Assembly: GCF_007859315.1 (NCBI RefSeq)
Contig: NZ_VOHA01000010.1
Coordinates: forward strand, 62,001-126,000
Direction: 5' to 3'
Length of the DNA stretch: 64,000 nt
From: Reyranella sp. CPCC 100927
GTDB lineage: Bacteria > Pseudomonadota > Alphaproteobacteria > Reyranellales > Reyranellaceae
Shown here piece after piece: positions 26,183 through 59,915 of this stretch (position 1 is the first letter of the stretch; each line of letters begins with the position of its first letter). The position numbers and the translations under genes were made by a program. Below the pieces are notes generated by a model. The model saw nothing but the letters and a program-made list of their open reading frames with translations. It was not told the origin of the DNA and did not search any database.

Positions 26183-26304
26183 CGTCGAATCCCCCATCCC
26201 ATGCGGGCGTCATGATTCCACCCCACACGGTTCTACATTGTCCCCTGCTATTGTCCACAATAAAGTGACCACTCGCATACTATACTAAGAAGTGCGGCCA
26301 AACG

Positions 26305-27465: not shown

Positions 27466-27534
27466 GCAGCATATCTCCAATACAGACCGCAACCGCCCCG
27501 TGTAATGCCTTTTGCTATGCCTCGCGGCCGCACG

Positions 27535-28392: not shown

Positions 28393-28491
28393 ATACGCTG
28401 ATCCTATTGCTCTGCCACCGCAGCGCTGATGCTGGGTCGATCCAAGAACAATTCAGATTGATGCAATAAGCGTCACCACTGCCTTACAGCT

Positions 28492-29649
28492 TCATGTCGG
28501 GCGGACAAGTCCGTTTGCCGGCGGGCAACTCATGGATGCATGGTTTAAATTTCCGCATCCGTGCACTTCCGGCTCTTCGCTTTCGACGTCCCTGTCATCC
28601 TGCTGGACGACAGACTGGCGCCTCGCCAGTGCCTTGTGTGCCCGCGACAAGTCTTCAGCTGCCATCAACTGCACCAACCCTTCGAAAGACATTTCGGATG
28701 CCCAGCCGAGCTGAGTGCGCGCGACGTCAGCGCTGCCCAGCAGTAGATCAACCTCTGCCGGTCGATAGTATTCGCGATCTATGACAATTACCTTTCTACC
28801 AGACGCTTGATCCACTCCAACTTCATCTCTGCCTTTGCCGATCCACTCGATCTTCATGTGCATGGCCGCCGCCGCCTTCTCGGCAAACGATCGAACCGGG
28901 TGCGTTTCCCCTGTCGACAGGATGCAGTCAACCGGCTTGTCCTGTTGCAGCATGAGCCACATGCCCTTCACGTAATCCTTGGCGTATCCCCAATCGCGGC
29001 GTGCATCCAGGTTACCCAACCGCAGAGGCCTCTCCTCAAGGCCGATCTTGATGCGAGCCAGATTGTAGGTGATTTTGCGCGTGACAAACTCTACGCCACG
29101 CAAAGGGGATTCGTGATTGAAGGCGATGCCTGAGACAGCGAAAAGATTGTAAGATTCACGATAATTGACGGTCATCCAGTGAGCATACAGTTTCGCCACC
29201 CCATAGGGGCTGCGCGGATAAAACATCGTTCGTTCAGTCTGTGGCGTCTCTTGAACCTTACCGAACATCTCGGACGTAGACGCCTGATAGAATTTAGTCG
29301 CCGGCGAGCTTTGGCGGATCGCGTCCAGGATACGCGCCACTCCCAACCCATCGACGTCGCCCGTGTAGATCGGCTGATCGAATGACGTACTGACGAAGCT
29401 TTGAGCTGCGAGATTATAGAATTCGTCTGGTTTAATCGTGGAAACTGCCCATTGAACGTTGCTGGCGTCGGCCAAATCAAACGCCACGCATTTCACGGAG
29501 TCACGGATCCGCAGTTCATCGAGACGCCAAAAATTCGGCGTCGATGTCCTGCGGCACCCTCCATAAACAGTGTACCCTTTTTCCAGGAGAAATTTTGCAA
29601 GATACGCGCCATCTTGGCCCGTAACACCCGAAACAAAGGCCGTTTTCAT
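28492..29649 (-). CDS. gmd: GDP-mannose 4,6-dehydratase
   Basis: 385 aa from ATG 29649, with GGGG upstream. An extended SDR fold carries the NADP motif GVTGQDGAYLA (8-18), catalytic S126/E127 (STSEMFG), Y149 and K153 (SPYGVAKLYAHW), plus DARRDWGYAKDYVKGMW. It converts GDP-mannose to GDP-4-keto-6-deoxymannose, the branch point to GDP-fucose, GDP-rhamnose and related sugars. A C-terminal extension of about 40 residues (from ARRQSVVQQDDRD) goes beyond the usual end and has no recognisable motif. The next pathway enzyme (fcl, rmd or per) is not in the window. Confidence 0.95.
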   Translation of the reverse strand: MKTAFVSGVTGQDGAYLAKFLLEKGYTVYGGCRRTSTPNFWRLDELRIRDSVKCVAFDLADASNVQWAVSTIKPDEFYNLAAQSFVSTSFDQPIYTGDVDGLGVARILDAIRQSSPATKFYQASTSEMFGKVQETPQTERTMFYPRSPYGVAKLYAHWMTVNYRESYNLFAVSGIAFNHESPLRGVEFVTRKITYNLARIKIGLEERPLRLGNLDARRDWGYAKDYVKGMWLMLQQDKPVDCILSTGETHPVRSFAEKAAAAMHMKIEWIGKGRDEVGVDQASGRKVIVIDREYYRPAEVDLLLGSADVARTQLGWASEMSFEGLVQLMAAEDLSRAHKALARRQSVVQQDDRDVESEEPEVHGCGNLNHASMSCPPANGLVRPT

Positions 29650-29698
29650 CAAAATACCCCCCAATAGACAACTCCCGTCTACTCCACTGCTCGGGTAA

Positions 29699-30469
29699 TT
29701 AGCCGGCCCTACGACGCAGAACGACCACATCCTGATGACCGAGGGCAAATGTCGGCAGCCATGCCAGAAGCTCAAAGGCTTGCTGCCAGTGATCCACGAT
29801 GTAGCGGATATCGTGAAAAGCAGCACCATAGTACTCGGGCAGAGTCATCTCGGCCTGGGTCCGGCCCCGAACATGGCAGAAACCCTTCAGATACATTGTG
29901 GCATCAAAGCTTCCGCCTTCGTTGTGTCGGCCCTGTGACTGCAGAGCGTGCCGGTATTCGCGAATCACTTTCGCGCCGTGCACAGACGTCACGAAAACAC
30001 CGTCGCTTCGCAGCACGCGCGAGAGTTCGCCAAGCCACTTGAATTGAATGTCCTCAGGCAAGTGTGTGAATACACTGTGCGCGACAATCAGATCTACGCT
30101 GCCAGTAGCGAGTGACGTGGGTGGCATCGCCTCAAGCGGCAGACTGGTCACACGTGGGTATGACGCCGCAAGCCACGCAATTGCCTGGGCATCGACATCC
30201 AGCCCGATCAAACGCTGCGTGGGCAGAAGATTTGCTTCAAGATGCCGAAGCGCGCGCCCACAGCCACAACCAAAGTCGAGGATCGTTCCAAAATCGCTCA
30301 AACGGCGGCCTGCAACAGCAAGTGCTTGGCGCCATTCCTCGACGGTTCTCGCTCCCGACTCGTCGAACCATTTGGCATCACTGGTTCCCGCGACACGCTC
30401 ACGCAGCGCGGACGGCGGAAGCGGCCCAAGCGAAAGTGTCGCAATGCCTACGTCAGCATCCCTCATCAT
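29699..30469 (-). CDS. SAM-dependent methyltransferase
   Basis: 256 aa, class I fold: ILDFGCGCGRALRHLEA (motif I, about 63-79), LIGLDVDAQAIAWL, and VDLIVAHSVFTHLPED with the usual HLPE helix. It is typical of small-molecule or sugar methyltransferases in polysaccharide loci. It lies 49 bp upstream of gmd on the same strand and probably starts that transcript, gmd - methyltransferase - zinc-ribbon methyltransferase. Two adjacent ATG codons (30469, 30466) make the exact start uncertain. Confidence 0.88.
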   Translation of the reverse strand: MMRDADVGIATLSLGPLPPSALRERVAGTSDAKWFDESGARTVEEWRQALAVAGRRLSDFGTILDFGCGCGRALRHLEANLLPTQRLIGLDVDAQAIAWLAASYPRVTSLPLEAMPPTSLATGSVDLIVAHSVFTHLPEDIQFKWLGELSRVLRSDGVFVTSVHGAKVIREYRHALQSQGRHNEGGSFDATMYLKGFCHVRGRTQAEMTLPEYYGAAFHDIRYIVDHWQQAFELLAWLPTFALGHQDVVVLRRRAG

Positions 30470-30851
30470 CGAACTCTCGCGCGCAACCGGAACTCTTGCC
30501 CGTCGTTAGAACGACGGCACCAGAATACGCCTGACCAGCCTGAGTGAGCACTGGCCGCCCAGCTCCTTTATCCAGACGCAATTCAAACGCCGCAAAGAAC
30601 GGCGCGCCACATAGGCAGATATTCTCGGCGCATGCAGTTCATCGACAATAGTGGCCGGATTTACCCCTCAGCTATCTCCAGTAGAATTTCTGTGGCGTGC
30701 ACACACAATGAATTTCCCGCAGGTTCAGTTCACAGTGAACCAATTCATTGAACGTTATTGTAGTCGAAGGGCATAGCTTTCGCGTGAGAGTGCGGGTCGC
30801 TTCATCGCGAGAATGACGGATCAATCGGATTGGTAACGAGGAGCGTCCTTG
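30470..30851. other. Divergent intergenic region, 382 bp
   Basis: No gene seen. It is A/T-richer than the rest of the window and separates the gmd-side transcript from the glycosyltransferase pair. It holds a dyad at 30728-30740 and a weak promoter-like TTGAAC-N17-GCATAG on the + strand (about 30750-30778). Confidence 0.5.
30728..30740. promoter_or_regulatory. Inverted repeat, possible operator
   Basis: GTTCAC-A-GTGAAC, perfect 6-bp arms around a single base, in the divergent region of the polysaccharide cluster about 110 bp upstream of the glycosyltransferase start. No cognate regulator is encoded next to it. Confidence 0.4.
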
Positions 30852-33098
30852 GTGACTTCCGAATCTCAGCATGGCACGCCAGCGGTAAGTTCGTCGCCCC
30901 GTCCGCATGCGCGTTTCGGAGCAAGAAACTCCTTCATCCGGTTCATGTCATTCGGCACTCGCAGCACTTCGGTAGGACACCAGACGTCTGTTGTCCGCCG
31001 ATCCGGACTTTTCGCTGCCAGATGGTATGCCGATCTATATCTGAAGTCGCATCGGTATTACAAAAAGCCATTGCATCATTATTTGACCATAGGTGCCTAC
31101 GAAGGACTGCGACCAAACCCAATATTCGATAGCTTCTTCTATCTCGCACGCTATCCGGACGTGCGAACAAGCGGGACAAACCCCCTGTATCACTACGTGC
31201 AATGGGGAGCGATCGAGAGACGAAATCCGAGCACACTTTTCGAGACCGAGTATTATCTCACACAGAATCCAGCCATCGATCGCTCAGGTGCGCAAACCGA
31301 GCTTACCCACTATCTGCTCTCGGGCATTGGAAACCGTAGTAACCCCCACCTTCTTTTCGGCACGCATTGGTATCTGGTTAACAATCCAGACGTCGCCGCA
31401 TCTGGCATCAATCCACTGTGGCATTTCATGGCATACGGCGCCGCCGAAGGACGCAATCCACATCCACTGTTCAACACCAGCTGGTATGTTCAACAGTACC
31501 GCCACGAACTTGCCGACGACAAAAATCCATTGGAGCATTTCCTGCAAAGTGGTGCCGAGAGCGGATGCAAGCCGCATCCGCTCTTCGAGACCGCATGGTA
31601 TCTAGCGACATACCCGGATGTGGCTGCCAACGGCATGAATCCGTTGTGCCACTTTGTAGCCCACGGCGCTGCCGAAGGGCGTAGCCCGCATCCGCTGTTC
31701 AACACGCGCTGGTATGTCCAACAGTACGGACGTGACGTCGAACCCGGCGCAAATCCGTTGGAGCACTTCATGCGCCGCGGTGCTGCCAGCGGATGCAACC
31801 CAAGCCCATCTTTCGATACGGCTTGGTATCTGCGGGAATACCCGGAGGTTGCCGCGGCCAATCTCAATCCATTGGTCCATTACGTTCTTCGGGGTAGTGC
31901 TGAAGGCCGTCGCACCAGCCCACCACCCATCAGTAGCAGGCGTTCACCAGCGCCACACGAGAAACGCTCCCGCGGATCAGCACCCGGAGCCAACTTCATC
32001 GGCCCTGTCGCTTGCGTCAACGGCCTCGGAACGAGTGCTCGCGGTTATCTGAAGGCCATGAAGTGCGCCAACATTACCGTCAATGTCGTGCCGTGGACTA
32101 TCGGCTTCGAACGCGTTGATAAGATTGACACCTTGACGTTTGACCAGTGCGAGCCCTTGCCGATCAATCTTGTTCACTTGAATCTCGACCTGATTACGCA
32201 ATCCCATTTGATTGACATGTCGGTCCTGCCGCAACTCGTCACGGCCGATAGATATAATATCGCAATCGTCTACTGGGAACTCGCTGCCATCGCACCTGAG
32301 TGGTTTGAGACCATCACACAGTTCGACGAGATCTGGTGCGCCAGCTCTTTCATGGCCCGCACCTTCGAGGCCATTTCAGCCAAGCCGGTTCGGGTCGTTC
32401 GACCGGCAATCGCTTTCTCGTCCGACCCACCGCAACGAGCTCGGCATCACTTCGGGTTACCGGAAGACAAGTATATTTTCGCCTACATGTTTGACGTTGG
32501 CAGCGTTGTCGGGCGCAAGAATCCTCTCGCTTTCGTCAAGGCCTACATCGAGGAATTTCATGCACAAGAAGGGGCCGTGTGCTTCGTCAAAATTGGCTAT
32601 GCGCCCGCCGGTTTGCCCGCGATAGAGGCTATAAGATCACTTGCCGAGAGACGACCGGATATTATCCTCGTAGAGCGCATATTCGCTTCCGATGAGATCG
32701 CCGATCTATTCAATCACATCGATTGCTATGTATCACCGCACCGTTCCGAAGGACTAGGCTTGACGATTATCGAAGCAATGGCCGCCGCAAAGCCAGTCAT
32801 TGCCGTGCGGTACGGCGGGGTTACCGATTTTGTGACTCCGGACACGAGCTTCATCGTCGACCATAAACTGATCGAGGTCGGCGAAGGTAATGCTCCCTAT
32901 CGGCCACGCTACATCTGGGCTGACCCAATTCAGTCCTCGCTGCGGCAGTGCATGCGCGCTGCTTTTGAGGACCGGCGAGCTGCGCAGGTGAAGGGTATGC
33001 AAGGTCGCGCAATTATTGACCGCCTGTTCTCGCCCACGCGAACTGGCGAAGCGCTTGCGGCCGAACTCGGGCGCGTGTCCGCCAACATCAGGGAATAG
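30852..33098 (+). CDS. GT4-like glycosyltransferase with eight-unit N-terminal repeat domain
   Basis: 748 aa from GTG 30852, with GAGGAG nine bases upstream. After about 50 basic residues come eight units of 38 residues (starting near 54, 92, 130, 169, 207, 245, 283, 321; one is 39). Each has the pattern F-x3-WYL-x-x-NPDV, NPLxHF and GAAEGR. This module occurs in other bacteria beside glycosyltransferase domains. The C-terminal half (about 375-745) is a GT-B enzyme with IDCYVSPHRSEGLGLTIIEA, the nucleotide-sugar motif. It likely adds a sugar to a surface polysaccharide, with the repeats acting in binding or assembly. Confidence 0.88.
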   Translation: MTSESQHGTPAVSSSPRPHARFGARNSFIRFMSFGTRSTSVGHQTSVVRRSGLFAARWYADLYLKSHRYYKKPLHHYLTIGAYEGLRPNPIFDSFFYLARYPDVRTSGTNPLYHYVQWGAIERRNPSTLFETEYYLTQNPAIDRSGAQTELTHYLLSGIGNRSNPHLLFGTHWYLVNNPDVAASGINPLWHFMAYGAAEGRNPHPLFNTSWYVQQYRHELADDKNPLEHFLQSGAESGCKPHPLFETAWYLATYPDVAANGMNPLCHFVAHGAAEGRSPHPLFNTRWYVQQYGRDVEPGANPLEHFMRRGAASGCNPSPSFDTAWYLREYPEVAAANLNPLVHYVLRGSAEGRRTSPPPISSRRSPAPHEKRSRGSAPGANFIGPVACVNGLGTSARGYLKAMKCANITVNVVPWTIGFERVDKIDTLTFDQCEPLPINLVHLNLDLITQSHLIDMSVLPQLVTADRYNIAIVYWELAAIAPEWFETITQFDEIWCASSFMARTFEAISAKPVRVVRPAIAFSSDPPQRARHHFGLPEDKYIFAYMFDVGSVVGRKNPLAFVKAYIEEFHAQEGAVCFVKIGYAPAGLPAIEAIRSLAERRPDIILVERIFASDEIADLFNHIDCYVSPHRSEGLGLTIIEAMAAAKPVIAVRYGGVTDFVTPDTSFIVDHKLIEVGEGNAPYRPRYIWADPIQSSLRQCMRAAFEDRRAAQVKGMQGRAIIDRLFSPTRTGEALAAELGRVSANIRE

Positions 33099-33194
33099 GC
33101 ATCAAAATTGTAAGGGCGATTATCTGCCGCTAGCGGAAAACAATAGCCAACCGTCGCGGACCCTTACTAAACGATCTAGCTTTTGGGGGCGAGC

Positions 33195-34820
33195 GTGATT
33201 GCATTGAATTCAAGACATAATTTAGTCAATACTTCAGTTTCAATCCTTATGCCTGTTTACAATACGCCACCAGATGTATTGGAGGCCGCGATACGTTCAG
33301 TTTTGTGTCAAACGTACGCCGACTGGGAGCTCTGCATATGCGACGACGCATCAACATCTCCGCAAACCCATCGCAGCCTTGAGAAATTCAAAGGCTTCGA
33401 CCACCGCATCAAAATACTTAAGGCATCTGTAAACCTCGGCATCGCCGAGGCAACCAACACCGCCGCAGAACTTGCAACTGGCGACTTCGTCGCCTTCCTT
33501 GATCACGACGACACGATCGATCCTGATGCCATTGCACAGATTGTCATGGCGATTCACGCCAATCCTGACGCTGATGTGCTCTATACCGACGAAGACAAGA
33601 TCGAGCCGAACGGCTCGTACTCAGAGCCATATATGAAGCCGGACTGGTCACCTGAGCATCTGATGTCCGTGATGTACCTGCTGCACATGTTTGTGCTACG
33701 CAAATCGCTGTTTCTCGATCTTGGCGGTGTGCGAAGCGCCTATTCGGGTGCACAGGACTACGATCTGGCTCTGCGCGCTACAACTCGGGCACGCCGTGTA
33801 GTTCATATTCCACGTGTTCTCTATCATTGGCGGAAGATCGAAGGGTCGGCAGCAGCGGCACTCGAAGCCAAGCCGCAGGCTCTCGTCAAAGCAGGCGCGG
33901 CACTTGCTGATTTCGTCAAACCATACGACGCGACAGTCGAGGGTGGTTTGTTTGCGGGCAGCTTTCGCGTGCGCTGGCCAATCAACAATGAGCGGCCCGT
34001 TACGCTGCTGATTCTCACCAACAGCCGCTTCCGCGACATCGAGGGACGCGGGCGGATTCTGCTCGTTGAGAACTTCATTCACAGCATCTTGGCCAAGACA
34101 ACCTATCCGAGCATTCGGATCCTCGTTGTTGACGATGGAAAGATGCCGTCGGACGTTCGCAGCGACCTGATTGCGCGCGGCGTCGTCGTGCGGCAGTACC
34201 CTCTCGAGGGGACCTTCAACTTTCCTCATAAGCTGAACTATTCACTGACACTGGTGGAAACCGAGGACGTCATCATTCTCAATGACGATCTGGAAGTTAT
34301 CTCGCCGGATTGGGTTGAAGCATTGCTTGAACAGTCACGCCGGCCAGAGATCGGCGCTGCCGGCGCTCGCCTCCTCTTTGCGAGTGGTTCCGTTCAGCAC
34401 GCCGGCGTTGTTCTTGGCGTCCAGGGCGCCGCAAGTCACATTTTTCACCACTGGCCGGGTGATCACATTGCCTACTGCGGATTTTCGCACATAGTGCGAA
34501 ATTATTCTGCCGTAACCGCTGCAGTGCTCGCCACCCGCTTAGGGGTAATCCGTGAGGTCGGCGGTTTCGATGAAGGCTTTGCCATTGACTACAATGATAT
34601 CGACTTTTGCTTGAAGGTGCGCAAGGCCGGCTATCGGGTCGTTTACACACCTTTTGCCGAGCTCTATCACTTCGAGGCGTCCAGCTTGACTCGCAACGCC
34701 CCCAATGAGGCCGACGCGCAATCATTCAGGGCCCGTTGGGCCAGCGAAATTGACGCCGACCCTCACTACAGTCCGCATCTGCCACGAGACCGGAATGATT
34801 GCGCGCTCGACATATGGTAA
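33195..34820 (+). CDS. Tandem-domain GT2 glycosyltransferase
   Basis: 541 aa from GTG 33195, with TTTTGGGGGC upstream. Two family-2 (GT-A) modules lie in a row. The first (about 14-235) has VSILMPVYNT, ICDDAS, FLDHDDTIDP with the metal-binding acidic pair, and SGAQDYDLALRA. The second (about 265-520) has LLILTNSRF, VVDDG, ILNDDLEVISPDW and a YNDIDFCLKVRKAGYRVVY equivalent of the ED motif. Such double enzymes often add two sugars in turn to an O-antigen or capsule chain. It follows the repeat-bearing glycosyltransferase by 96 bp, probably in one transcript. Confidence 0.93.
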   Translation: MIALNSRHNLVNTSVSILMPVYNTPPDVLEAAIRSVLCQTYADWELCICDDASTSPQTHRSLEKFKGFDHRIKILKASVNLGIAEATNTAAELATGDFVAFLDHDDTIDPDAIAQIVMAIHANPDADVLYTDEDKIEPNGSYSEPYMKPDWSPEHLMSVMYLLHMFVLRKSLFLDLGGVRSAYSGAQDYDLALRATTRARRVVHIPRVLYHWRKIEGSAAAALEAKPQALVKAGAALADFVKPYDATVEGGLFAGSFRVRWPINNERPVTLLILTNSRFRDIEGRGRILLVENFIHSILAKTTYPSIRILVVDDGKMPSDVRSDLIARGVVVRQYPLEGTFNFPHKLNYSLTLVETEDVIILNDDLEVISPDWVEALLEQSRRPEIGAAGARLLFASGSVQHAGVVLGVQGAASHIFHHWPGDHIAYCGFSHIVRNYSAVTAAVLATRLGVIREVGGFDEGFAIDYNDIDFCLKVRKAGYRVVYTPFAELYHFEASSLTRNAPNEADAQSFRARWASEIDADPHYSPHLPRDRNDCALDIW

Positions 34821-50469: not shown

Positions 50470-51369
50470 TTATGACGTGGGCTTGGGATCCTGCGCGACT
50501 TCCGGCGATGCCGGCTGCATGGCCACCCAGCAGCTTGCGAGGATCAAAACCGCGCCGATACCGGTCACCAGGTCGGGAATCTCGTTGAACACAACGACAC
50601 CGCCGATCATGGCGAACACCAAGCGGAGCAGCGTCAGCGGTCCCAGCGACGAGGCACTGGCATGTCTTAACGCGACAATGCCGACATACATGCCGATCGG
50701 CCCAAACACGAGGACACTGGACAACCAGGGCCAGACCGACTGCGCGGGCAGGTCTTCCAGGATCACAGTGGGCAAGTTCCCCACGATCATCACCGCGTTG
50801 GCATAAAACATGGTCGTCAGCTCGCTATCACCGCCCGGTCGCTGAACGTACTTGTTCAGGACGAACGCAAGACCGTTCAGGCTGGTCCCGACGAGAGCAA
50901 CGACATAGACGGTGTTCCACTCAGCAAACGCCGGCTTGATGATCAGCAACGCCCCGATCATGCCGGCGGCACTAGCCATCCAGCGCAGCGCCGTAATGCG
51001 TTCATGGAGGATCAGCGCCGAGAACATCGTGATGTACGGCACCACCGTAAAGGAAATCGCCGTTGCATCGGCGAAGGGCAGCTGACCGAACGAATACATC
51101 AAAACCCAGCCGTAGCAGATCGCCACGACGCCACGCAGCAACTGCAGGCCGAGCTGATTGGTTCTGACGACAGCCCACCCCACGGTTCTGGCTAACACCA
51201 CAACCAGCAAAACGCCCCCGATGCCACGCATCAACGCCAATTGCATCACACTCGCGCCACTGCCGATGTGATGGATCATGGCGGTTTCGATTGTGAAGAG
51301 TACGCTCTGCGCCACCATCAGGAGACCGGCGAGGCGGAGACCGTTCATCGCCTCGCTCCACCACGCCAT
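50470..51369 (-). CDS. EamA/DMT-superfamily transporter
   Basis: 299 aa with ten hydrophobic segments and two EamA halves (about 10-138 and 155-285; the second starts YVVALVGTSLNGLAFVLNKY). Inner-membrane drug/metabolite transporters of this type export amino acids, nucleosides or other small molecules. ATG 51369 has GGGCGAG upstream; ATG 51348 is an alternative start. It lies downstream of the DUF6065-like gene on the same strand, 166 bp away with an inverted repeat between, so cotranscription is possible but not shown. Confidence 0.92.
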   Translation of the reverse strand: MAWWSEAMNGLRLAGLLMVAQSVLFTIETAMIHHIGSGASVMQLALMRGIGGVLLVVVLARTVGWAVVRTNQLGLQLLRGVVAICYGWVLMYSFGQLPFADATAISFTVVPYITMFSALILHERITALRWMASAAGMIGALLIIKPAFAEWNTVYVVALVGTSLNGLAFVLNKYVQRPGGDSELTTMFYANAVMIVGNLPTVILEDLPAQSVWPWLSSVLVFGPIGMYVGIVALRHASASSLGPLTLLRLVFAMIGGVVVFNEIPDLVTGIGAVLILASCWVAMQPASPEVAQDPKPTS

Positions 51370-51535: not shown

Positions 51536-52282
51536 TCATAGTCCTTCCTTGGTCCGCCGTTTTCGTGCCGCGACCGCGTACTTGCCGAGCGGACGGTTGG
51601 GGTCCTTGTTAGGCCCGACAACCGCCTGATCGTAAGCGTGCCAATCGTCCGGCGACAACGATTGAAGCCCCGACTCGACCTGCATCGCGTTCAAAAAATC
51701 GTCGGCATAGTGCTGGCGATGGACGGGCTGCACCTGCAGAAACGGCCATTGGGTATCAAACCGGATCGGCACACCGGTCTGAATGAGGCGCACATTGAAA
51801 AACAGCGGCCCACCCCACGCATCCGTTTCTATGATGCCATCGAAGTGATGGTAACCGGCGCTGTGAGGCAGGTTCGCCGGCGCGCGCAACAGCAGACTCC
51901 AATCCGGAGCAGTGCGCACGATCAACCCCGTCCAGATCTGCAGTATCGCCGGACCGTCGAGCATTGAAAGAAAGGGTGGAGAGAAGCCCTTGGCGCTTTC
52001 CGGCGCCGCAGCGTCGAACTCATCGGCGAAGCCAGGGTATTGGGCGACCTTTAGCGGAAACCAGCCGTCGGCGCCGTCATAGGTCCAGAGAGCATCGATG
52101 CCATCAAACATGATTTGAAAGGCGATGGGTGGAAAGACATACCACCCAAACCCGGACGCTGCGGACACCGGCTCGCAATATCGAACGGCCCGTACCGGCA
52201 GCGTGCCTGCCGCATCGCGTGTTGCGCGTCGTGGCGGCAGCCCGCCCCGCACAACTTTCTTGAAAGTAACAACTGGGTTCAT
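51536..52282 (-). CDS. DUF6065-like protein of unknown function
   Basis: 248 aa, soluble, no signal peptide. Features I associate with DUF6065 are GFGWYVFPPIAFQIMFDG near 43-60, QIWTGLIVRTAPDWSLLLR with the Arg-Thr-Pro-like core, APANLPHSAG, GIIETDAWGGPLFFNVRL, and PFLQVQPVHRQHY. Function is unknown. It starts 60 bp after the stop of the 29-residue-repeat gene, on the same strand, with a strong hairpin between. The arrangement is like a highly expressed small product followed by a less expressed partner. No strong ribosome binding site precedes its ATG. Confidence 0.8.
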   Translation of the reverse strand: MNPVVTFKKVVRGGLPPRRATRDAAGTLPVRAVRYCEPVSAASGFGWYVFPPIAFQIMFDGIDALWTYDGADGWFPLKVAQYPGFADEFDAAAPESAKGFSPPFLSMLDGPAILQIWTGLIVRTAPDWSLLLRAPANLPHSAGYHHFDGIIETDAWGGPLFFNVRLIQTGVPIRFDTQWPFLQVQPVHRQHYADDFLNAMQVESGLQSLSPDDWHAYDQAVVGPNKDPNRPLGKYAVAARKRRTKEGL

Positions 52283-52299
52283 GGTTCAAACATCACGCA

Positions 52300-52331
52300 G
52301 GCCGGGACAAGGCAGACACCTTGTCCCGGCC
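52300..52331 (-). terminator. Perfect 13-bp hairpin between the repeat gene and the DUF6065-like gene
   Basis: GGCCGGGACAAGG / CCTTGTCCCGGCC with loop 52313-52318. On the minus strand it begins 12 bases after the repeat gene's stop and is not followed by a T tract, so it probably acts as a partial terminator, processing point or mRNA stabiliser rather than a full stop. A second small stem, AGTCTT/AAGACT, spans the stop codon. Confidence 0.75.
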
Positions 52332-52342
52332 GCGAGTCTTAA

Positions 52343-53152
52343 TCAAGACTTACGAAACGTCGGTTGCATTCCGCCCACCTTGACCCGGTCACCGTCTGCC
52401 ACCTCTTTCGGGGCGGTCAGAACAACGCGCACCGCGTCACGGAACGTCGGCTGCATACCGCCGACCTTGACCCGGTCACTGTCTGACACCTCTGCCGGGG
52501 CGGTCAGAACAACGCGCACCGCGTCACGGAACGTCGGCTGCATACCGCCGACCTTGACCCGGTCACTGTCTGACACCTCTGCCGGGGCGGTCAGAACAAC
52601 GCGCACCGCGTCACGGAACGTCGGCTGCATACCGCCGACCTTGACCCGGTCACTGTCCGACACCTCTGCCGGGGCGGTCAGAACAACACGCACCGCGTCA
52701 CGGAACGTGGGCTGCATGCCGCCAACCTTGACCCGGTCACTGTCCGACACCTCTTCCGGCGCAGTCAGAACAACACGCACCGCGTCACGGAACGTGGGCT
52801 GCATGCCGCCAACCTTGACCCGGTCACTGTCTGCCACCTCTTTCGGGGCGGTCAGAACAACACGCGCCGCGTCGCGGAACGTCGGCTGCATGCCGCCGAC
52901 CTTGACCCGGTCACTGTCCGACACCTCTTCCGGCGCAGTCAGAACAACGCGCACCGCATCACGGAACGTCGGTTGCATGCCGCCGACCTTGACCCGGTTC
53001 GTATCAGTTACTTCCGCAGGGGCAGTGAGAACAACTCGCACCGCACCACGGAATGTGGGCTGCATGCCGCCGAGCTTAACCCGATTTCCGTCAACCACTT
53101 CTTCGGGGGCGGTCAGAACAACGCGCACACCCTTCGCAGCTTCAACTTGCAT
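52343..53152 (-). CDS. Protein of nine tandem 29-residue repeats, unknown function
   Basis: 269 aa from ATG 53152, with AGGAGGATTGCG directly upstream. Seven leading residues (MQVEAAK) are followed by nine 29-residue units without a single insertion or deletion, then a final Ser. Each unit reads VRVVLTAP-x-EV, a variable acidic D-x-D stretch, RVKVGGMQPTFR and D. There is no cysteine, signal peptide or membrane segment. Units are almost invariant; changes sit at the residue after TAP (E/A/K) and the VSDS/VADS/VTDT stretch. I do not recognise the family. It could be a beta-repeat structural protein or a multi-copy peptide precursor. It is divergent from three BTAD regulators. Confidence 0.8.
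   Translation of the reverse strand: MQVEAAKGVRVVLTAPEEVVDGNRVKLGGMQPTFRGAVRVVLTAPAEVTDTNRVKVGGMQPTFRDAVRVVLTAPEEVSDSDRVKVGGMQPTFRDAARVVLTAPKEVADSDRVKVGGMQPTFRDAVRVVLTAPEEVSDSDRVKVGGMQPTFRDAVRVVLTAPAEVSDSDRVKVGGMQPTFRDAVRVVLTAPAEVSDSDRVKVGGMQPTFRDAVRVVLTAPAEVSDSDRVKVGGMQPTFRDAVRVVLTAPKEVADGDRVKVGGMQPTFRKS
52349..53131. repeat. Tandem array, nine 87-bp units
   Basis: Exactly 783 bases = 9 x 87. Neighbouring units around 52440-52700 differ by only one or two bases, including at silent positions, while the outer unit near 53045-53131 is more diverged. This points to recent expansion or gene conversion within the array. Because 87 is a multiple of three, copy-number change keeps the reading frame. 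Confidence 0.95.
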
Positions 53153-53518
53153 CGCAATCCTCCTCATTGTGTCCCCCGGAAAACCCGTGGGATTCCGAAC
53201 CGCGACCGCCCCACTCGGGCTGCGTCGCCCCGCCTCCGGTGATGTTGAATTTCGCGACCACAACCAGAGAAACAGGCGAAGACACAATGACTTAGATCGA
53301 GCCTGGGAAAAAGAACCGAAACCGGAAGTAATGCGGTTTTATCGGCCTATCGTCCGTGATATCTGCGTAATTTTGCATTCTTATGTAGCGTGACAATGAC
53401 GTGATATTGCCCTTGCGCTGAGTGTGATAACGGCATAGCATTCAAAAAACGGAGGACCAATCTCTAGCTGTATGTCGATGTTAGAGTGCACGCGGCAGGC
53501 GTTCCGGGGGGTTGGTAA
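53153..53518. other. Divergent promoter region of the repeat gene and the BTAD operon, 366 bp
   Basis: No gene seen. The half next to the repeat gene is GC-rich; the half from about 53280 to 53450 is A/T-rich and contains repeated YGTGAYA heptamers. Both start codons have good ribosome binding sites (AGGAGG on one side, GGGGGG on the other). Confidence 0.6.
53355..53429 (+). promoter_or_regulatory. Four direct YGTGAYA heptamers, candidate BTAD-regulator binding sites
   Basis: CGTGATA at 53355, CGTGACA at 53389, CGTGATA at 53400 and TGTGATA at 53423, all in the same orientation. Spacings are 34, 11 and 23 bases, near multiples of 11. SARP/BTAD winged-helix proteins are known to bind direct heptamers spaced 11 bp, on one DNA face. 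Position between divergent starts fits control of both sides. Confidence 0.5.
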
Positions 53519-55681
53519 ATGGCATCTGAATTTAAATACGCTGAAGCGCCGCCCGCGCATGGGAGCCCTCTCGCATCCCCATGGGCCGACCTGGCCGGGC
53601 CTGCGGCAGACCCCAATGCTGCCCCCTTCCGGCTTTCATTGCTGGGCAACTTCAGTCTGACCGGACCGCAGGGACCAGTTGATCTCGGCAATAGGAAACT
53701 TTGTGCCCTGCTGGCCTTTCTTGTTTCCGCTTCTTCAGATCTGCTGTCGCGCGAGACGCTGACGACTTTGCTGTGGGGCTCGCAGTTAAAAACCCAGGCT
53801 CAGCAGAACCTGAGGCAAATGCTAACGCGGTTGCGCCGGGCGCTCGGGGATGATGTATTTGCCACCAACGACAATGCTCTGCAGGTCCGCCCTGGATTAT
53901 TTTACTGCGATGCGGTCAGTTTTGAGGCGTTGATTCAGGCCGATTCGCGCGACAGTCGCAAAACTGCAATCGACCTCTACCAGGGCGCGTTCCTGTCAAA
54001 CATCGCGATCCAGGAAGACGGCTGGACTGATTGGGTGGTCACCCAGCGCCAGAAGCTCGAGGATCTTGCCGTCGACGGGTTGATCCAGCTCGGCGAAGAA
54101 GAGGCAGAACTCGGGGCCTCCACACAGGCACTCGAGCTTGCCAACCGCGCACTGGCCATCAACGGGCTACGGGAAGACGGCCATCGCCTGATCATGCGGT
54201 CGCTGGCTGCTGCTGGGCGGCGTGCGGAGGCACTGAAGCACTATGACCAGCTGGCGGTGAGACTGAAGCGTGACCTGAATGTGGAGCCCGACTCTGCAAC
54301 GACAACGCTAATCACAACGCTGCGGCGGGCACGAGCCCAGGATCGCGTGGCAAAGCCCACGGGGAACGTTGCCCCGACGGCGCCCCGAACCTCCGCGAAG
54401 TTTTCACAGGAAGCGGTCCCTGCGCCAGAGATCGTCTCCGGCGCATCGGCGCCCCGCCTGCATACGCCACAGGTGCTGCAGGAGACGCAGCCGTCTATCG
54501 CCGTTCTCCCGTTTCACAATCTTGGCGGCGACACCAGCGACGACTATTTCGCCGACGGTGTCGTAGAAGATATCATCGTCTCGCTGGCCGGCTTACGCGA
54601 GCTGCTGGTCATCTCCAGAACCTCGACGTTCGCCTATCGCAACCGCCAGGTCGATCCACGCGAAGTTGGGCGCGCGCTTGGCGTGCGGTACGTTCTGGAA
54701 GGCAGTATCCGCAAAAGCAAAACGTCGATCCGCGTCTCGACCCAGCTTTGCGACACTGAAACCGGCGCCAGTTTGTGGGGCGAGCGTCAGGAAGTCCCCC
54801 TGGGTGATCTCTTTGAAGTACAGGATCGCATCGTTCGCGACGTTGTCGCCGGGATAGCGCCTAACGTTCAGACGGCAGAACTGGAGCGCGCGTTGCGCGT
54901 ACGGCCGTCCAGCTTCACCGCGTATGACCATACGCTGCGCGCACTGAACACCATCAACAACCTTGATCGACAGTCGTTCCTGGCCGCGCGCGAGCATCTC
55001 CATGAAGCGATGACCGCACAGCCCAGCTTCGCCATGCCTGCCGCCTGGGCCGCGTTCTGGTACATCATTTGGGTCGGCCAAGGGTGGTCGGACAATCCGA
55101 GGGAAGACTCGAACACGGGTGCGACGCTCGCAACCAGAGCAATCGACCTGGATGGACACAACGCGTTGGCGCTCGCGACGTACGGGCACCTGAGGTCTTT
55201 TCTGTTCCACGACTACGACAGCGCGCTGGTGTACTTCGATCGGGCATTAGCGGCTTGTCCCAACAGTTCGTGGGCCTGGATTCTGTCCAGCATCACACTC
55301 AGCTACATCGGCCGTAGCGACGATGCGGTTCGACACGCTGAGCATGGCTTGCGGCTATCACCCTACGACCGCAACCTCTTCCTGTACTACACACCGCTCA
55401 GCATCGCCCATTACAGCAACGGCAATTACGAGGATGCGGTCAAGTGGGGCCGCATGTCCGTTGCCGAGAATCCCACCTTCTCGGCCTGCTACAGGTACTT
55501 GATATCCGCCCTGGCCGCGGTCGGGCGGTTGGATGAAGCACATGAAGTCGCGTCCAACTTTCTGAAGCTGGAACCTGACTTCAAGCTGCACTTGTACGAG
55601 CAGACGTTGCAGCCGTTCCGGCATCCCGAGATCAAAGCGCGTCACATGGAGCATCTCAAGAAAGCGGGATTGCCGACATGA
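53519..55681 (+). CDS. BTAD-domain regulator with TolB-N-like and TPR domains (paralogue 1 of 3)
   Basis: 720 aa; ATG 53519 follows GGGGGG. The N-terminal winged helix of SARP/BTAD type (about 37-135: FRLSLLGNFSLTGPQGPVDL, SRETLTTLLWGS, NLRQMLTRLRRALG) is followed by the BTAD helical repeats (about 140-262, ending LKRDLNVEPDSATT). A Pro/Ala linker leads to a TolB-N/FlgO-like domain (about 325-450: PSIAVLPFHNLGGD, FADGVVEDIIVSLAG) and C-terminal TPR helices (about 460-715) ending in KAGLP. No receiver, cyclase or membrane segment is visible. The last bases ATGA overlap paralogue 2, so the two are translationally coupled. Confidence 0.92.
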   Translation: MASEFKYAEAPPAHGSPLASPWADLAGPAADPNAAPFRLSLLGNFSLTGPQGPVDLGNRKLCALLAFLVSASSDLLSRETLTTLLWGSQLKTQAQQNLRQMLTRLRRALGDDVFATNDNALQVRPGLFYCDAVSFEALIQADSRDSRKTAIDLYQGAFLSNIAIQEDGWTDWVVTQRQKLEDLAVDGLIQLGEEEAELGASTQALELANRALAINGLREDGHRLIMRSLAAAGRRAEALKHYDQLAVRLKRDLNVEPDSATTTLITTLRRARAQDRVAKPTGNVAPTAPRTSAKFSQEAVPAPEIVSGASAPRLHTPQVLQETQPSIAVLPFHNLGGDTSDDYFADGVVEDIIVSLAGLRELLVISRTSTFAYRNRQVDPREVGRALGVRYVLEGSIRKSKTSIRVSTQLCDTETGASLWGERQEVPLGDLFEVQDRIVRDVVAGIAPNVQTAELERALRVRPSSFTAYDHTLRALNTINNLDRQSFLAAREHLHEAMTAQPSFAMPAAWAAFWYIIWVGQGWSDNPREDSNTGATLATRAIDLDGHNALALATYGHLRSFLFHDYDSALVYFDRALAACPNSSWAWILSSITLSYIGRSDDAVRHAEHGLRLSPYDRNLFLYYTPLSIAHYSNGNYEDAVKWGRMSVAENPTFSACYRYLISALAAVGRLDEAHEVASNFLKLEPDFKLHLYEQTLQPFRHPEIKARHMEHLKKAGLPT

Positions 55682-57948
55682 GAACAGCGCAACGCCTCAG
55701 GGTCGCGACAAACCCGATATTGCCTTTCGAAGGTCGGCCGATGAGCACCAGCTCCAAGCGTGTCGCAGTAGCAAGCGCCGGCTTTACCCCATCGGCACCG
55801 GTCGTTGGTAGTCGCCAGCCCGAAGCGTTATTCCAGCTCTCCTTGCTGGGGCACTTCAATTTGAGCGGCCCCAACGGTCCAGTCGATCTGGGCAACAAGA
55901 AGCTATGTGCCCTGATCGCTTTCGTGGCGTGCGCGACATCCGAGCCGCCATCGCGTGAGACACTGACCACATTGCTGTGGGGTTCGCATTTCGAAGTCCA
56001 GGCACGACACAACATGCGCCAGGCGCTGACACGGTTACGCCGAGCGTTTGGCGATGACGTGTTTGTGAACAGCGACAATACGTTGGTGATTCGTCCCGGG
56101 CTTTTTCACTGCGACGTGACCAGCTTCGAAACCCTGATCCACGATGAATCACGGCAGACCCGCAAGGCTGCGGTCGACCTCTACCAGGGCACATTCCTGG
56201 CCAATATCGCCATCCCGGAAGAAGCATGGACTGACTGGCTGACCGCACAGCGGCAACGGCTGGAAGATCTTGTCGTCGATGGCCTGATCCGCCTCGGCGA
56301 AGAGGAAGAACAAATCGATGCGCCTGCGTTGGCCCTGGAGTTTGCCAATCGTGCCATCGCCATCAACGGTCTGCGCGAGGATGGTCACCGGTTGATCATG
56401 CGATCGCTGGCCGCCGTTGGACGGCGGGCCGAGGCGCTTAGGCACTATGATCAGCTGGCCACGCGGCTGAAGCGTGATCTGAGTGTCGAGCCCGATGCCG
56501 CGACGACGTCCTTGGTCGCGACTCTGCGACAGTCGCGTGCTCCACGGGCGGAACCCGGCCCGGCACAAGACCCGCAAAGCCCGGTTGCAGCACCCGTTGA
56601 AGGAATGCCAACCGCGCGCGCCGAGGCACCGTGGAATGGCACCGGCGTCGCCAATGCGATGGCGGTAGCACCGGCACAGCGAGAAGTCCGGGCCGCAGGG
56701 ATAGTCGCAGAAATCCTGCCTGCTGTGTCTCCCACGCAGTCACAGCAAGGGACATTGCCATCCATTGCCGTGTTGCCCTTTCAGAACCTCGGCGGCGATC
56801 CGAGCGATGACGATTTTGCCGACGGTATCGTCGAAGACATCGTCGTGTCGCTGGCCAGCTTGCGTGAATTGGTGGTGATCTCGCGAACCTCGACGGTGGC
56901 CTACCGAGGCCGCCAGGTCGATCCGCGAGAGGTCGGACGGGCGCTGGGTGTCCGCTATGTCCTGGAGGGCAGCGTGCGCAAAGGCACGGCGTCAGTGCGG
57001 GTCGCGATCCAGCTTTGCGACACCGAAACTGGCGCCAGCCTATGGGCGGAACGCCATGAGGCACCTCTGGGCGACCTGTTCGAGGTCCAGGACAGCATCG
57101 TCTGCAATGTTGTTGCCGGAATTGCCCCCAACGTGCGATCGACGGAGTTGGAGCGCGCGCTGCGGATCCGGCCAACCAGTTTCACGGCCTACGATCATAC
57201 GCTGTATGCCCTGAACCTCATCAACAGTCTGGATCGCAAGACGTTCCTGAGTGCGCGAGACCACCTCGACAAGGCCATGGCGGCGCACCCTGGCTTTGCC
57301 ATGCCGGTCGCCTGGGCTGCGCGCTGGTACAGCATCTGGATCGGCCAGGGATGGTCAGATAACCCCAAGGCGGACGCCGACAAAGCGGCAGCGCTTGCCG
57401 CACGGGCCATCGACCTGGACGGGCACAATGCGCTGGCATTAGCGACATATGGGCACGTGCGGTCGTTCCTGTTCCACGACTATGACAGTGCGCTGGTCTA
57501 TTTCGATCGCGCGCTATCGGCTTGCCCCAACTATTCGCTGGCTTGGATCCTGTCGAGCGCCACGTTGAGCTATGTCGGCCGCGGCGCCGATGCCGTTCGA
57601 CATGCCGAACGCGGCCTGCGGCTGTCGCCGTACGACCGCAGCCTCTTTCTCTACTACAATTTCCTGGGTATCGCGCATTACGGGAACGGCAACTACGAAG
57701 AGGCGATCAAGTGGGGCCGCTTGTCCGCCGCCGAAAGCCCCCTCTTTGCGTCCAATCTCCGGATGCTCGCAGCGGCGCTGGCGGCGGTCGATCGGTTGAA
57801 CGAAGCGCGTGAGATCGCGGCGGCCCTGCTCACGTTGGAGCCCAACTTCAGTCTCGACACGTATGAGCAGACTCGCCAGCCGTTTCGACAGCCGGAGATC
57901 AAGACGCGCCTCATTGCGCACCTGAGAACGGCCGGATTGCCGGCGTGA
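55678..57948 (+). CDS. BTAD-domain regulator with TolB-N-like and TPR domains (paralogue 2 of 3)
   Basis: 756 aa with the same domain order as paralogue 1: winged helix and BTAD (about 50-285), the longest linker of the three (about 285-355, Ala/Pro-rich), TolB-N-like domain (about 360-485: LPSIAVLPFQNLGGDPSDDD), and TPR (about 490-750) ending in TAGLP. The start used is the ATG in the ATGA overlap; ATG 55741 with AAGG upstream is an alternative that trims 21 poorly conserved residues. Shared blocks such as SRETLTTLLWGS are identical in all three copies. Its end overlaps paralogue 3 by GTGA. Confidence 0.92.
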   Translation: MRTAQRLRVATNPILPFEGRPMSTSSKRVAVASAGFTPSAPVVGSRQPEALFQLSLLGHFNLSGPNGPVDLGNKKLCALIAFVACATSEPPSRETLTTLLWGSHFEVQARHNMRQALTRLRRAFGDDVFVNSDNTLVIRPGLFHCDVTSFETLIHDESRQTRKAAVDLYQGTFLANIAIPEEAWTDWLTAQRQRLEDLVVDGLIRLGEEEEQIDAPALALEFANRAIAINGLREDGHRLIMRSLAAVGRRAEALRHYDQLATRLKRDLSVEPDAATTSLVATLRQSRAPRAEPGPAQDPQSPVAAPVEGMPTARAEAPWNGTGVANAMAVAPAQREVRAAGIVAEILPAVSPTQSQQGTLPSIAVLPFQNLGGDPSDDDFADGIVEDIVVSLASLRELVVISRTSTVAYRGRQVDPREVGRALGVRYVLEGSVRKGTASVRVAIQLCDTETGASLWAERHEAPLGDLFEVQDSIVCNVVAGIAPNVRSTELERALRIRPTSFTAYDHTLYALNLINSLDRKTFLSARDHLDKAMAAHPGFAMPVAWAARWYSIWIGQGWSDNPKADADKAAALAARAIDLDGHNALALATYGHVRSFLFHDYDSALVYFDRALSACPNYSLAWILSSATLSYVGRGADAVRHAERGLRLSPYDRSLFLYYNFLGIAHYGNGNYEEAIKWGRLSAAESPLFASNLRMLAAALAAVDRLNEAREIAAALLTLEPNFSLDTYEQTRQPFRQPEIKTRLIAHLRTAGLPA

Positions 57949-59915
57949 ACCGCCCGCCTGACGCACCGTTTCAACTGTCACTATTCGGGCGCTTCAACCT
58001 AGTCGGACCAGACGGTCCGATTGATCTGAGTAATAAAAAACTAAGCGCTCTGCTTGCATTCCTGGCGTGCGCAACATCGGAGCCGCCGTCACGTGAGACA
58101 CTGACGACGCTGCTGTGGGGATCGCACTTCGACACGCAGGCGCGCCATAGCCTGCGTCAGGCATTGACCCGTTTGCGTCGCGCCCTCGGCCAGGACGTAT
58201 TCACCGGCACCGACAACACTCTTGCACTCCGTCCCGGACTGTTTCACTCCGATGCGGACCGCTTCCTGGACCTGCTTCGTGTCCCGTCGCGCGAGGCGCG
58301 CAAGGCGGCAGTCGATCTCTACCGGGGCGCTTTCCTTGCCAATATCGACATTCCGGAAAAAGTCTGGACCGACTGGATCACCGATCAGCGCCAGAGCATG
58401 GAAAACCTCGCGGTCACCAGCTTGATCCAACTGGGCGAAGAAGCGGAGCGGCAAGGTGCGCTGGTGCAAGCGCTGAGGTTTGCCAACCGAGCCATCGCGA
58501 TCAACGATCTGCGCGAGGACGGGCATCGCCTGATCATGCGGAGTCTGGCCGCTGATGGTCAAACGGCCGAAGCACGCCAACACTACGATCACCTGGCAGC
58601 GCGACTGAAGCGTGACCTGAATGTCGAACCCGATGCCGCAACGACGGCATTGATCAACAACTTGGCTACCTCGTCGGCGCCAACTTCCCCCGTATCACAG
58701 ATGCTCTCGCAGCACGACTTGCTGCCGTCCATCGCCGTGCTGCCCCTTCGCAACCTCGGTGGCGATACGGCCGACGACTACTTCGCCGACGGTATCGTCG
58801 AGGACATCATTGTGTCGCTGGCCGGGCTGCGCGAGTTGTTCATCGTTTCAAGAAGCTCGACCCTGGCGTTTCGCGGCAGACAGGTCGATCCACGTGAGGT
58901 CGGTCGCACCTTGGGTGTTCGCTACGTTTTAGAAGGCAGCGTCCGAAAAAGCAGGACGTCCATGCGCGTCTCGACTGAGCTTTGTGACGCTGAAACGGGG
59001 GCCAACCTGTGGGCCGAACGGCAGGAGATCGCCTTGGGCGACCTGTTCGCCGTCCAGGACCATCTCGTTCGCCGCATCGTGGCCGGGATCATACCGAACG
59101 TACGAACGGCCGAACTGGACCGGGCGCTACGCCTGCGGCCGACCAGCTTCACCGCTTACGATCATACGCTGCGCGCCCTCGACGTCATCAACAGTACTGA
59201 CCGGCAGACGTTCCTCGGTGCGCGCGAGCATCTCGACACGGCCATGGATGCACACCCGGGCTTCGCCATGCCGGCTGCCTGGTCGGCGTACTGGTACGTG
59301 ATCTGGATCGGTCAGGGATGGTCCGACAATCCCACGGAGGATGCGAAGAAGGCTGCAGCGGTCGCAACGAAAGCTGTCAACCTGGACCGTCACAATTCGC
59401 TGGCGCTGGCGGCGCACGGACATGTGCGTTCGTTCCTGCTCCACGACTACGACAGTGCGCTTGCGTATCTTGGCCAGTCCCTAGCGGCAGGGCCCAACAA
59501 TTCTCTCGCCTGGATTCTGTCGAGCGCCACATTGGCCTATGTCGGCCGCGGCAGTGATGCGGTACGCCATGCTGAGCACGGTCTGCGGCTATCACCTTAC
59601 GACCGGATCCTCTTTTTCTATCACAATTTTCTCAGCATCGCACACTACGGGAATGGCAATCATGAAGAGGCGGTGAAGTGGGGTCGCCTGTCCGCTGCTG
59701 AAAACCCGAAGTTCACATCCAACCTCCGGATCCTGGCGTCGGCTCTTGTCGCTATCGGCCAACTCGACGAGGCGCGTGATGTCGCATCGGAACTCATGAA
59801 GCTGGAGCCGAATTTTCGCTTAAGCGTCTATGAACGGACACGGCAACCATTCCGGCAGCCCGAACTCAAGGCGCTCACCATGGCGCACCTCAGAATCGCC
59901 GGACTGCCAGAGTGA
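57945..59915 (+). CDS. BTAD-domain regulator with TolB-N-like and TPR domains (paralogue 3 of 3)
   Basis: 656 aa from GTG 57945 in a GTGA overlap. It is the shortest copy: it begins almost directly with the winged helix (FQLSLFGRFNLVGPDGPIDL at residues 8-27) and has only a brief linker (about 240-260) before the TolB-N-like domain (LLPSIAVLPLRNLGGDTADD). TPR helices complete it, ending in IAGLP. All domains are intact, so this is not a decayed copy. It is convergent with rarA (26 bp), with no clear terminator between. Confidence 0.92.
   Translation: MNRPPDAPFQLSLFGRFNLVGPDGPIDLSNKKLSALLAFLACATSEPPSRETLTTLLWGSHFDTQARHSLRQALTRLRRALGQDVFTGTDNTLALRPGLFHSDADRFLDLLRVPSREARKAAVDLYRGAFLANIDIPEKVWTDWITDQRQSMENLAVTSLIQLGEEAERQGALVQALRFANRAIAINDLREDGHRLIMRSLAADGQTAEARQHYDHLAARLKRDLNVEPDAATTALINNLATSSAPTSPVSQMLSQHDLLPSIAVLPLRNLGGDTADDYFADGIVEDIIVSLAGLRELFIVSRSSTLAFRGRQVDPREVGRTLGVRYVLEGSVRKSRTSMRVSTELCDAETGANLWAERQEIALGDLFAVQDHLVRRIVAGIIPNVRTAELDRALRLRPTSFTAYDHTLRALDVINSTDRQTFLGAREHLDTAMDAHPGFAMPAAWSAYWYVIWIGQGWSDNPTEDAKKAAAVATKAVNLDRHNSLALAAHGHVRSFLLHDYDSALAYLGQSLAAGPNNSLAWILSSATLAYVGRGSDAVRHAEHGLRLSPYDRILFFYHNFLSIAHYGNGNHEEAVKWGRLSAAENPKFTSNLRILASALVAIGQLDEARDVASELMKLEPNFRLSVYERTRQPFRQPELKALTMAHLRIAGLPE

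Follow-up and report, generated by a model that had tools for sequence, protein, structure and literature searches.

The 64-kb stretch of the 9.08-Mb genome of Reyranella sp. CPCC 100927 analysed here (the window, whose positions are used throughout) contains a compact group of genes built around a tandem repeat. On the minus strand, an array of 87-bp units (52352 to 53128; 8.9 copies by Tandem Repeats Finder) lies within a gene (52343 to 53152) whose translation yields nine 29-residue units in a single frame, the commonest being RVVLTAPAEVSDSDRVKVGGMQPTFRDAV; the nine-unit repeat gene of the initial annotation is thus present. The gene likely starts at the ATG at 53152, which has a GAGGAGG six bases ahead of it, and would then encode 269 amino acids. 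The gene for a DUF6065 protein, here called DUF6065-A, follows on the same strand (51536 to 52282), and three regulator genes read away from both on the plus strand (53519 to 55681, 55678 to 57948 and 57945 to 59915). By their co-occurrence elsewhere, array, DUF6065-A and regulator are a genuine recurring set, and we envision that they may form a regulated cassette for a peptide product.

Is the array coding DNA, and in which direction? Differences between units fall chiefly on the third position of the minus-strand frame (97, 59 and 308 at codon positions 1, 2 and 3), and over all unit pairs 229 codon differences are synonymous and 131 non-synonymous. By this pattern the variation is that of coding DNA. 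The codon pattern alone is shared by one antisense frame, which has a comparable third-position excess (230 and 151), so the sense is settled by homologous arrays adjoining DUF6065-A elsewhere, which read in the same direction. A 422-residue open reading frame (ORF) on the plus strand across the array is best read as an antisense shadow; it has no Pfam match at E 1 and one weak NCBIfam match (17.5 bits, with a cut-off of 250). Likenesses of the window repeat to CsrA, flagellin, amanitin and phage connectors, and of arrays from other loci to various families, lie inside the repeats and under curated cut-offs where such cut-offs exist, and were dismissed.

A gap of 60 nt separates the array gene from the DUF6065 gene and holds a perfect 13-bp hairpin (52300 to 52331; z about -6.5 against 40 mononucleotide shuffles), as had been noted before. 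It is possibly an attenuator or an element of mRNA stability. On the other side of the array gene, the divergent intergenic region presumed to contain the promoters (53153 to 53518) does measure the 366 bp initially annotated, given the start at 53152. The direct heptamers reported there are not above chance: 13 pairs at no more than one mismatch compare with 9.3 in shuffles (p 0.23), and repeated exact heptamers give p 0.44. At this frequency they lend no support to operator sites. An 11-bp direct repeat at 53389 to 53410 (CGTGACAATGA / CGTGATATTGC, 8 of 11 positions matching) was picked by eye in this region, which overall is not above chance; its spacing is, presumably, that of Streptomyces antibiotic regulatory protein (SARP) sites.

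The three regulators are 67-71% identical to each other and are joined by 4-nt overlaps (55678-55681 and 57945-57948). BTAD exceeds its Pfam cut-off in all three, with TPR matches in addition, and Trans_reg_C is above cut-off in one, just below in another and weak in the remaining one. They had been annotated as coupled BTAD/TolB-N/TPR paralogues, a description that stands for BTAD, TPR, paralogy and overlaps. TolB-N is called by neither Pfam nor NCBIfam; weak matches to GNA1162-like, LpoB and CadC families are found there, and the middle of regulator 1 has no called family. A profile of 10 regulators places the N-terminal half close to AfsR structures (E down to 3.6e-18) and EmbR (E 7.4e-15). 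The host genome has nine BTAD matches, and the top four are the regulators of its two cassettes. As an observation apart, in three of the loci discussed below (L- and G-numbers are our labels for loci and genomes), the C-terminal regulator half ends a longer protein beside DUF6065-A (L092, 7809-10457; L102, 7802-10462; L120, 7796-10498); in L120 the front of this protein contains, by Pfam, a histidine kinase and a receiver, and L092 and L102 look alike by layout only.

How consistently do these parts travel together? The host's second cassette (L016, at C23) comprises a regulator, five short units and DUF6065. We searched the order with a DUF6065-A profile, using its 56 genomes of 90% completeness or more, which all belong to one family. 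This yielded eight full-length loci in seven genomes, each with array and regulator; two weaker matches (one in G039, a second one in G005) have neither in the flanking DNA examined. With a regulator profile searched over 75 genomes, 12 full-length matches above 880 bits were obtained at ten loci in nine genomes, the profile having been built from seven of those 12 matches and three scan loci. In G073 and G003, which were outside the 56-genome search, an array and DUF6065-A adjoin the regulator. In total, all ten DUF6065-A loci found in the host family (nine genomes) have both an array gene and a regulator. Full-length regulators of lower score (431-501 bits with our own model; G057, G042, G041 and G017) come with neither array nor DUF6065-A. 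The C-terminal half alone is common in the family genomes by the 75-genome profile, and the argument therefore rests on full-length matches. Nine other family loci have one regulator each, split in one of them, and the window alone has three; in G001 a stop lies inside the regulator frame. Searches by repeat only are insensitive, the window repeat being found in four of the 75 family genomes though nine carry the cassette, and a composite repeat query having matches in one of the 56.

A wider scan of species genomes gave 190 DUF6065-A relatives, of which the best 80 were used, a sample that leans to closer relatives and derives mostly from Acetobacteraceae and Roseomonas-like metagenome-assembled genomes and strains, plus Elioraea, Rhodopila and Sneathiella. 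Together with ten local loci, and given at least 300 nt of upstream DNA (L110 and L112 had too little and were omitted), 81 of 88 loci have an array gene as the immediate upstream neighbour of DUF6065-A. This figure comprises 65 loci recognised by pattern and 16 entered by hand (L016-L019, L054, L064-L067, L078, L084, L117, L124 and L163-L165); the first motif search had missed units without Met (14 of 80 loci), and the pattern was then widened post hoc. The patterns used found no array in L106, L111, L128, L138, L140, L141 and L142, and L067, L076, L098 and L117 contain masked stretches. A regulator is located within 5 kb in 32 of the 43 loci with enough flank, with both halves covered in 27 (BTAD is absent or partial in L073, L092, L102, L120 and L126), and within 3 kb in 35 of 49, with both halves covered in 30. 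Three loci from another family (L050, L051 and L054) have an array and no regulator in 12 kb. Rhodopila globiformis (L075) likewise has array and DUF6065-A, and the flanking DNA examined showed no regulator. When the ORFs of 87 loci were clustered all against all, regulator (52 loci) and array (34 by BLAST) emerged as the general partners, the next cluster reaching 13 loci. Ordinary DUF6065 neighbourhoods served as controls: none of 22 has a regulator match, none has an array as judged by eye (the looser pattern fired in nine ORFs, none of them an array on inspection), and no adjoining ORF cluster occurs in more than three loci. The co-occurrence of repeat gene, DUF6065-like gene and BTAD regulator that had been suggested from the window is thereby confirmed. 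Tandem arrays can grow by replication slippage, and a variable-number repeat might in principle have come to lie beside unrelated genes by chance; this is contradicted by the recurrence with its controls and by the coding type of the array variation, and we give it virtually no credence.

The units themselves have a characteristic anatomy. Over 308 units from 72 loci, the consensus is A-D-A-G-[KR]-[VI]-R-[LI]-G-G, after which the sequence varies, often as x-A-P-x-L/F or x-x-R-L-P. By this measure each unit joins a variable core of about seven residues to a conserved tag that reads approximately D-x-G-[KR]-[VI]-R-x-G; the search pattern fixed Gly at unit position 9 and restricted positions 5, 6, 8 and 10, and Asp at position 2 (0.87) was unconstrained. 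Four peptides found by pattern (L075, L076, L098 and L100) are outside these statistics, and overlapping matches make the unit counts for L070 and L125 too high. Mean unit identity is 0.83 within a locus (61 loci) versus 0.43 between loci. The number of units per locus, counted by regular expression, ranges from 1 to 18, and L113, L115, L127 and L139 encode single-unit peptides of 29-30 residues. L063, whose DUF6065 is nearest to that of the window among the best 80 of 190 (63%), has a 63-residue peptide that we read as two window-like units. As many as 18 units by pattern, near-identical within their locus, are what one might expect of a structural repeat protein, an amyloid- or solenoid-like polymer for which DUF6065-A would serve as chaperone or cap; the existence of single-unit peptides counts against such a role, as does the lack of any structural or secreted family call, and we consider it quite improbable. 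The repeat product was initially proposed to be the output of the locus. We favour this proposal, as it is the unit rather than the array that stays constant and as transporters stand directly behind in several lineages.

Eight genomes among the best 80 of 190 relatives harbour two cassettes (L068/L072, L071/L088, L096/L114, L110/L125, L112/L113, L080/L136, L094/L131 and L063/L124). Five of these pairs allow an AP-type as well as an RLP-type array to be read (L071/L088, L080/L136, L096/L114, L112/L113 and L094/L131, the last pair with a GGGCRxP core), as if these genomes made two different products. On a tree of 88 DUF6065-A proteins the RLP class needs 5 changes versus 16.6 in shuffles.

Which partner does the core follow? 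Across 46 loci with all three genes, divergence of the core correlates with that of DUF6065-A once the regulator is removed (0.35; p printed as 0.000 with 2000 permutations), and its correlation with the regulator once DUF6065-A is removed is 0.00 (p 0.46). The former ranged from 0.27 to 0.49 when we used ranks or regulator halves, thinned the set to 24 loci or left out the host family; the latter stayed at 0.00-0.12 in the same variants, with one of six at p 0.049. This favours, short of proving, a contact between core and DUF6065-A; shared ancestry is removed in part only. It also bears on the idea of a peptide signalling loop, in which the regulator would sense processed units through its TPR half, comparable to the peptide sensing of RRNPP-type quorum sensing. 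A protein with the TPR half is encoded within 5 kb in 32 of the 43 loci; in L120, and judging from layout also in L092 and L102, this half is fused not to BTAD but to a histidine kinase and receiver, which would make it the constant part; and a small regulator signal persists in the tag (0.16, p 0.022). Nonetheless, the core itself does not track the regulator after correction for DUF6065-A, which is an indirect indication, and 11 of 43 loci have no protein with the TPR half within 5 kb, so that we regard such a loop as improbable, if somewhat less so than a structural polymer.

What kind of protein is DUF6065-A? The window protein matches PF19541 with E 4.3e-13 (49.7 bits, above the Pfam cut-off of 26.6), in keeping with its initial description as DUF6065-like. 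A structure model based on 55 sequences (predicted local distance difference test score, pLDDT, 90.1), which supersedes an earlier model with pLDDT 67.8, is confidently predicted to have a dUTPase fold of the PF00692 type. Foldseek comparison of the model with dUTPases gave a best E of 2.1e-3, and dUTPase-Stl complexes are among the structural matches, by structure titles. A profile comparison of DUF6065-A with dUTPase was not significant (E 0.29), and the dUTPase link therefore rests on the predicted fold. When dUTPase motifs 1-5 were represented by simple patterns, they occurred in 0, 2, 0, 0 and 0 of 55 DUF6065-A proteins and each in 12 of 12 dUTPases of the relatives; the host encodes a separate dUTPase of its own. 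A phage origin was considered and rejected: the window DUF6065, run by tblastn against phage records, matched none of them. Remote relatives do exist, since L054, L057 and L058 match phrog_7084 and others are present in BFVD. Separately, the array pattern found nothing in the remote-relative loci L052, L055, L056, L057 and L058, and receptor-like genes are situated close to the DUF6065 relative in L052 and L057; these remote loci suggest a wider superfamily in which phages share.

Directly downstream of the window DUF6065 gene, after a gap of 166 nt and outside the stretch first annotated, lies a minus-strand gene for an EamA transporter of the drug/metabolite transporter (DMT) superfamily, a candidate exporter (50470 to 51369; Pfam). 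Over 272 residues it shares 51% identity with the EamA protein of L063, whose gene overlaps the DUF6065-A stop. Another EamA type shares a 4-nt overlap with DUF6065-A in L064-L067 and L122, and on two Rhizobium plasmids a three-unit peptide gene and DUF6065 are accompanied by a major facilitator superfamily (MFS) gene at a 4-nt overlap, the MFS frame of L187 being split in two. In L134 (EamA, 229 nt) and L131 (MFS, 71 nt), a transporter gene follows on the same strand with no overlap. Taken together, among 92 loci with 1 kb of downstream DNA, 11 have a transporter gene immediately after DUF6065-A, and these represent perhaps six lineages. An EamA gene is also found behind the regulator in L079, L085, L090, L099 and L118. 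These calls derive from Pfam scans of L063, L065, L122, L188, L079, L099, L134, L131 and the window gene, and otherwise from BLAST to these. The same BLAST in 26 control loci gave one weak EamA-type match (68.6 bits) and one SGNH-type match (85.5 bits). EamA domains are common (76 matches in the host), so single cases are weak and the argument is their repeated overlap in separate lineages. We also observed a same-strand SGNH (NonGDSL) hydrolase frame behind DUF6065-A in L071, L074, L075, L080, L089, L104 and L114, called by Pfam for L071 and by BLAST for the others, fragmented in L074 and incomplete in L080.

Most dUTPases are trimers, and DUF6065-A may perhaps be one as well. Conceivably, then, the array might act inside the cell as a multivalent ligand that docks onto DUF6065-A and controls it, comparable to the way in which phage dUTPases work via contacts to proteins such as Stl, with neither export nor modification of units. 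Repeated short motifs beside a dUTPase-like fold, the dUTPase-Stl complexes among the structural matches and a core that tracks DUF6065-A would all be expected, and no curated leader or maturase was found that would point elsewhere. Multivalency cannot be essential, however, given versions with one and two units, and the coupling of transporters to DUF6065-A in several lineages is at odds with a purely intracellular ligand. We therefore deem this scenario unlikely, albeit worth keeping in mind.

How might a regulated peptide-product cassette operate? We envision a scenario whereby it works like a multi-core cluster for ribosomally synthesized and post-translationally modified peptides (RiPPs). 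The array gene would supply several copies of the tag and variable-core unit, and DUF6065-A would recognise each unit and then bind, modify or cut it. By attenuation, the hairpin might keep peptide synthesis above that of DUF6065-A. An EamA or MFS transporter, where present, as it is beside the window DUF6065 gene, would export the product, and the BTAD/TPR proteins may be cluster-specific activators whose C-terminal half senses a ligand or a partner. The units would accordingly be product or precursor and DUF6065-A their dedicated handler, which fits the tag and core pattern, the adjacency of the genes and the correlation of core with DUF6065-A. For this scenario as a whole we see about an even chance; parts, order, recurrence and the tag-core pattern are read from sequence, the fold is predicted and the rest we infer. 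Its stronger form, a new ribosomal peptide class in which tag-core arrays are matured by a dUTPase-fold DUF6065-A that has lost dUTPase chemistry, under BTAD/TPR control and with EamA/MFS export, is a distinctly more tentative proposition.

Several findings weigh against the peptide-product cassette. In the 87-locus clustering, with family scans on chosen genes only, none of the recurrent neighbours proved to be a RiPP maturase or peptidase of a known kind, although an unusual enzyme may have escaped such scans, and eight array peptides that were scanned reach the cut-off of no Pfam or NCBIfam family. DUF6065-A may only bind units, because no active site of it is known. DUF6065-A is not followed directly by a transporter gene in 81 of 92 loci, including the second cassette of the host; 11 of 43 loci have no regulator inside 5 kb, and five more have the C-terminal half only; and of the 69 stretches between array and DUF6065-A that were scored (72 were taken), 23 contain a perfect stem reaching 8 bp or more. 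The divergence data are also less clear-cut beyond the core. The tag half tracks DUF6065-A (0.15, p 0.015) and the regulator equally, and the whole unit, at 0.31 with DUF6065-A, retains a small regulator signal (0.11, p 0.038). Within core classes, the DUF6065-A versus regulator contrast is 0.09 and 0.16 for RLP, neither significant, and weak for xP (0.26 and 0.20, p 0.025 and 0.027). Anti-phage defence was rejected as a function: PADLOC has no family matching DUF6065 or the regulators at E 0.01, and there is one 17-bit match inside the repeat.

Elsewhere in the window, positions 26000-34000 are apparently a polysaccharide island: G+C drops to 0.54-0.57, from 0.62-0.68 before and about 0.65 after, and the ORFs are methyltransferase-, GDP-mannose-dehydratase- and glycosyltransferase-like as named from their translations. 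A 228-nt tandem repeat of 1.8 copies (31435-31846) is located within a large glycosyltransferase-like ORF there.

What would such a cassette mean? It unites peptides that have no Pfam or NCBIfam entry at cut-off, a DUF with a predicted fold and a type of BTAD regulator into one testable unit, present in many Acetobacteraceae and relatives, some of which have two paralogous cassettes of different core type. If modification were shown, the cassette would be a new RiPP class. If DUF6065-A acts on the units, the dUTPase fold would enter peptide chemistry, and a set of highly variable peptides would be open to product discovery, DUF6065-A having 190 relatives in one scan; if it only binds them, a dUTPase-like fold would still be paired in a new way with a repeat ligand. 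The open-licence literature searched makes no mention of DUF6065. In the portions seen of the open-licence literature on multicore RiPPs, BTAD/TolB/TPR proteins, the dUTPase fold, EamA, SARP and the unit motifs, nothing was recognised as the cassette; the earlier statement that no named system combines these parts holds to that extent. One unit-motif match (PMC13186347) is, to judge from its title, about a schistosome lipid enzyme, and is taken as chance.

Set beside known systems, the cassette shares features with several. The window protein and canonical DUF6065 belong to the same Pfam family (PF19541), but canonical members match it with E of about 1e-57 to 1e-104 (bar one gene split in two), compared with 4.3e-13 for the window, and have no array or regulator nearby. 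From the dUTPase and dCTP deaminase fold group (PF00692), DUF6065-A differs in the dUTPase motifs, of which only motif 2 was found, in 2 of 55 proteins. Phage dUTPase and Stl likewise exemplify a dUTPase fold used for protein contacts, by structure titles, yet no Stl-like protein is among the recurrent neighbours here and the neighbour is instead a repeat peptide. The regulators resemble AfsR/SARP regulators and EmbR in their N-terminal half and differ from AfsR and EmbR, whose C-terminal parts are of other kinds, in carrying the TPR half instead. Multi-core RiPP precursors, such as those of cyanobactins, consist of cassettes with a recognition element for each core. The present cassette differs from these in having a partner with a predicted dUTPase fold, with no known maturase or peptidase among its recurrent neighbours and no curated leader family, and as we found no recurrence of an enzyme that defines a known peptide system, we rate it as categorically new. 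In common with them, it combines an encoded series of constant and variable segments with a partner gene, a regulator and, in some cases, a transporter.

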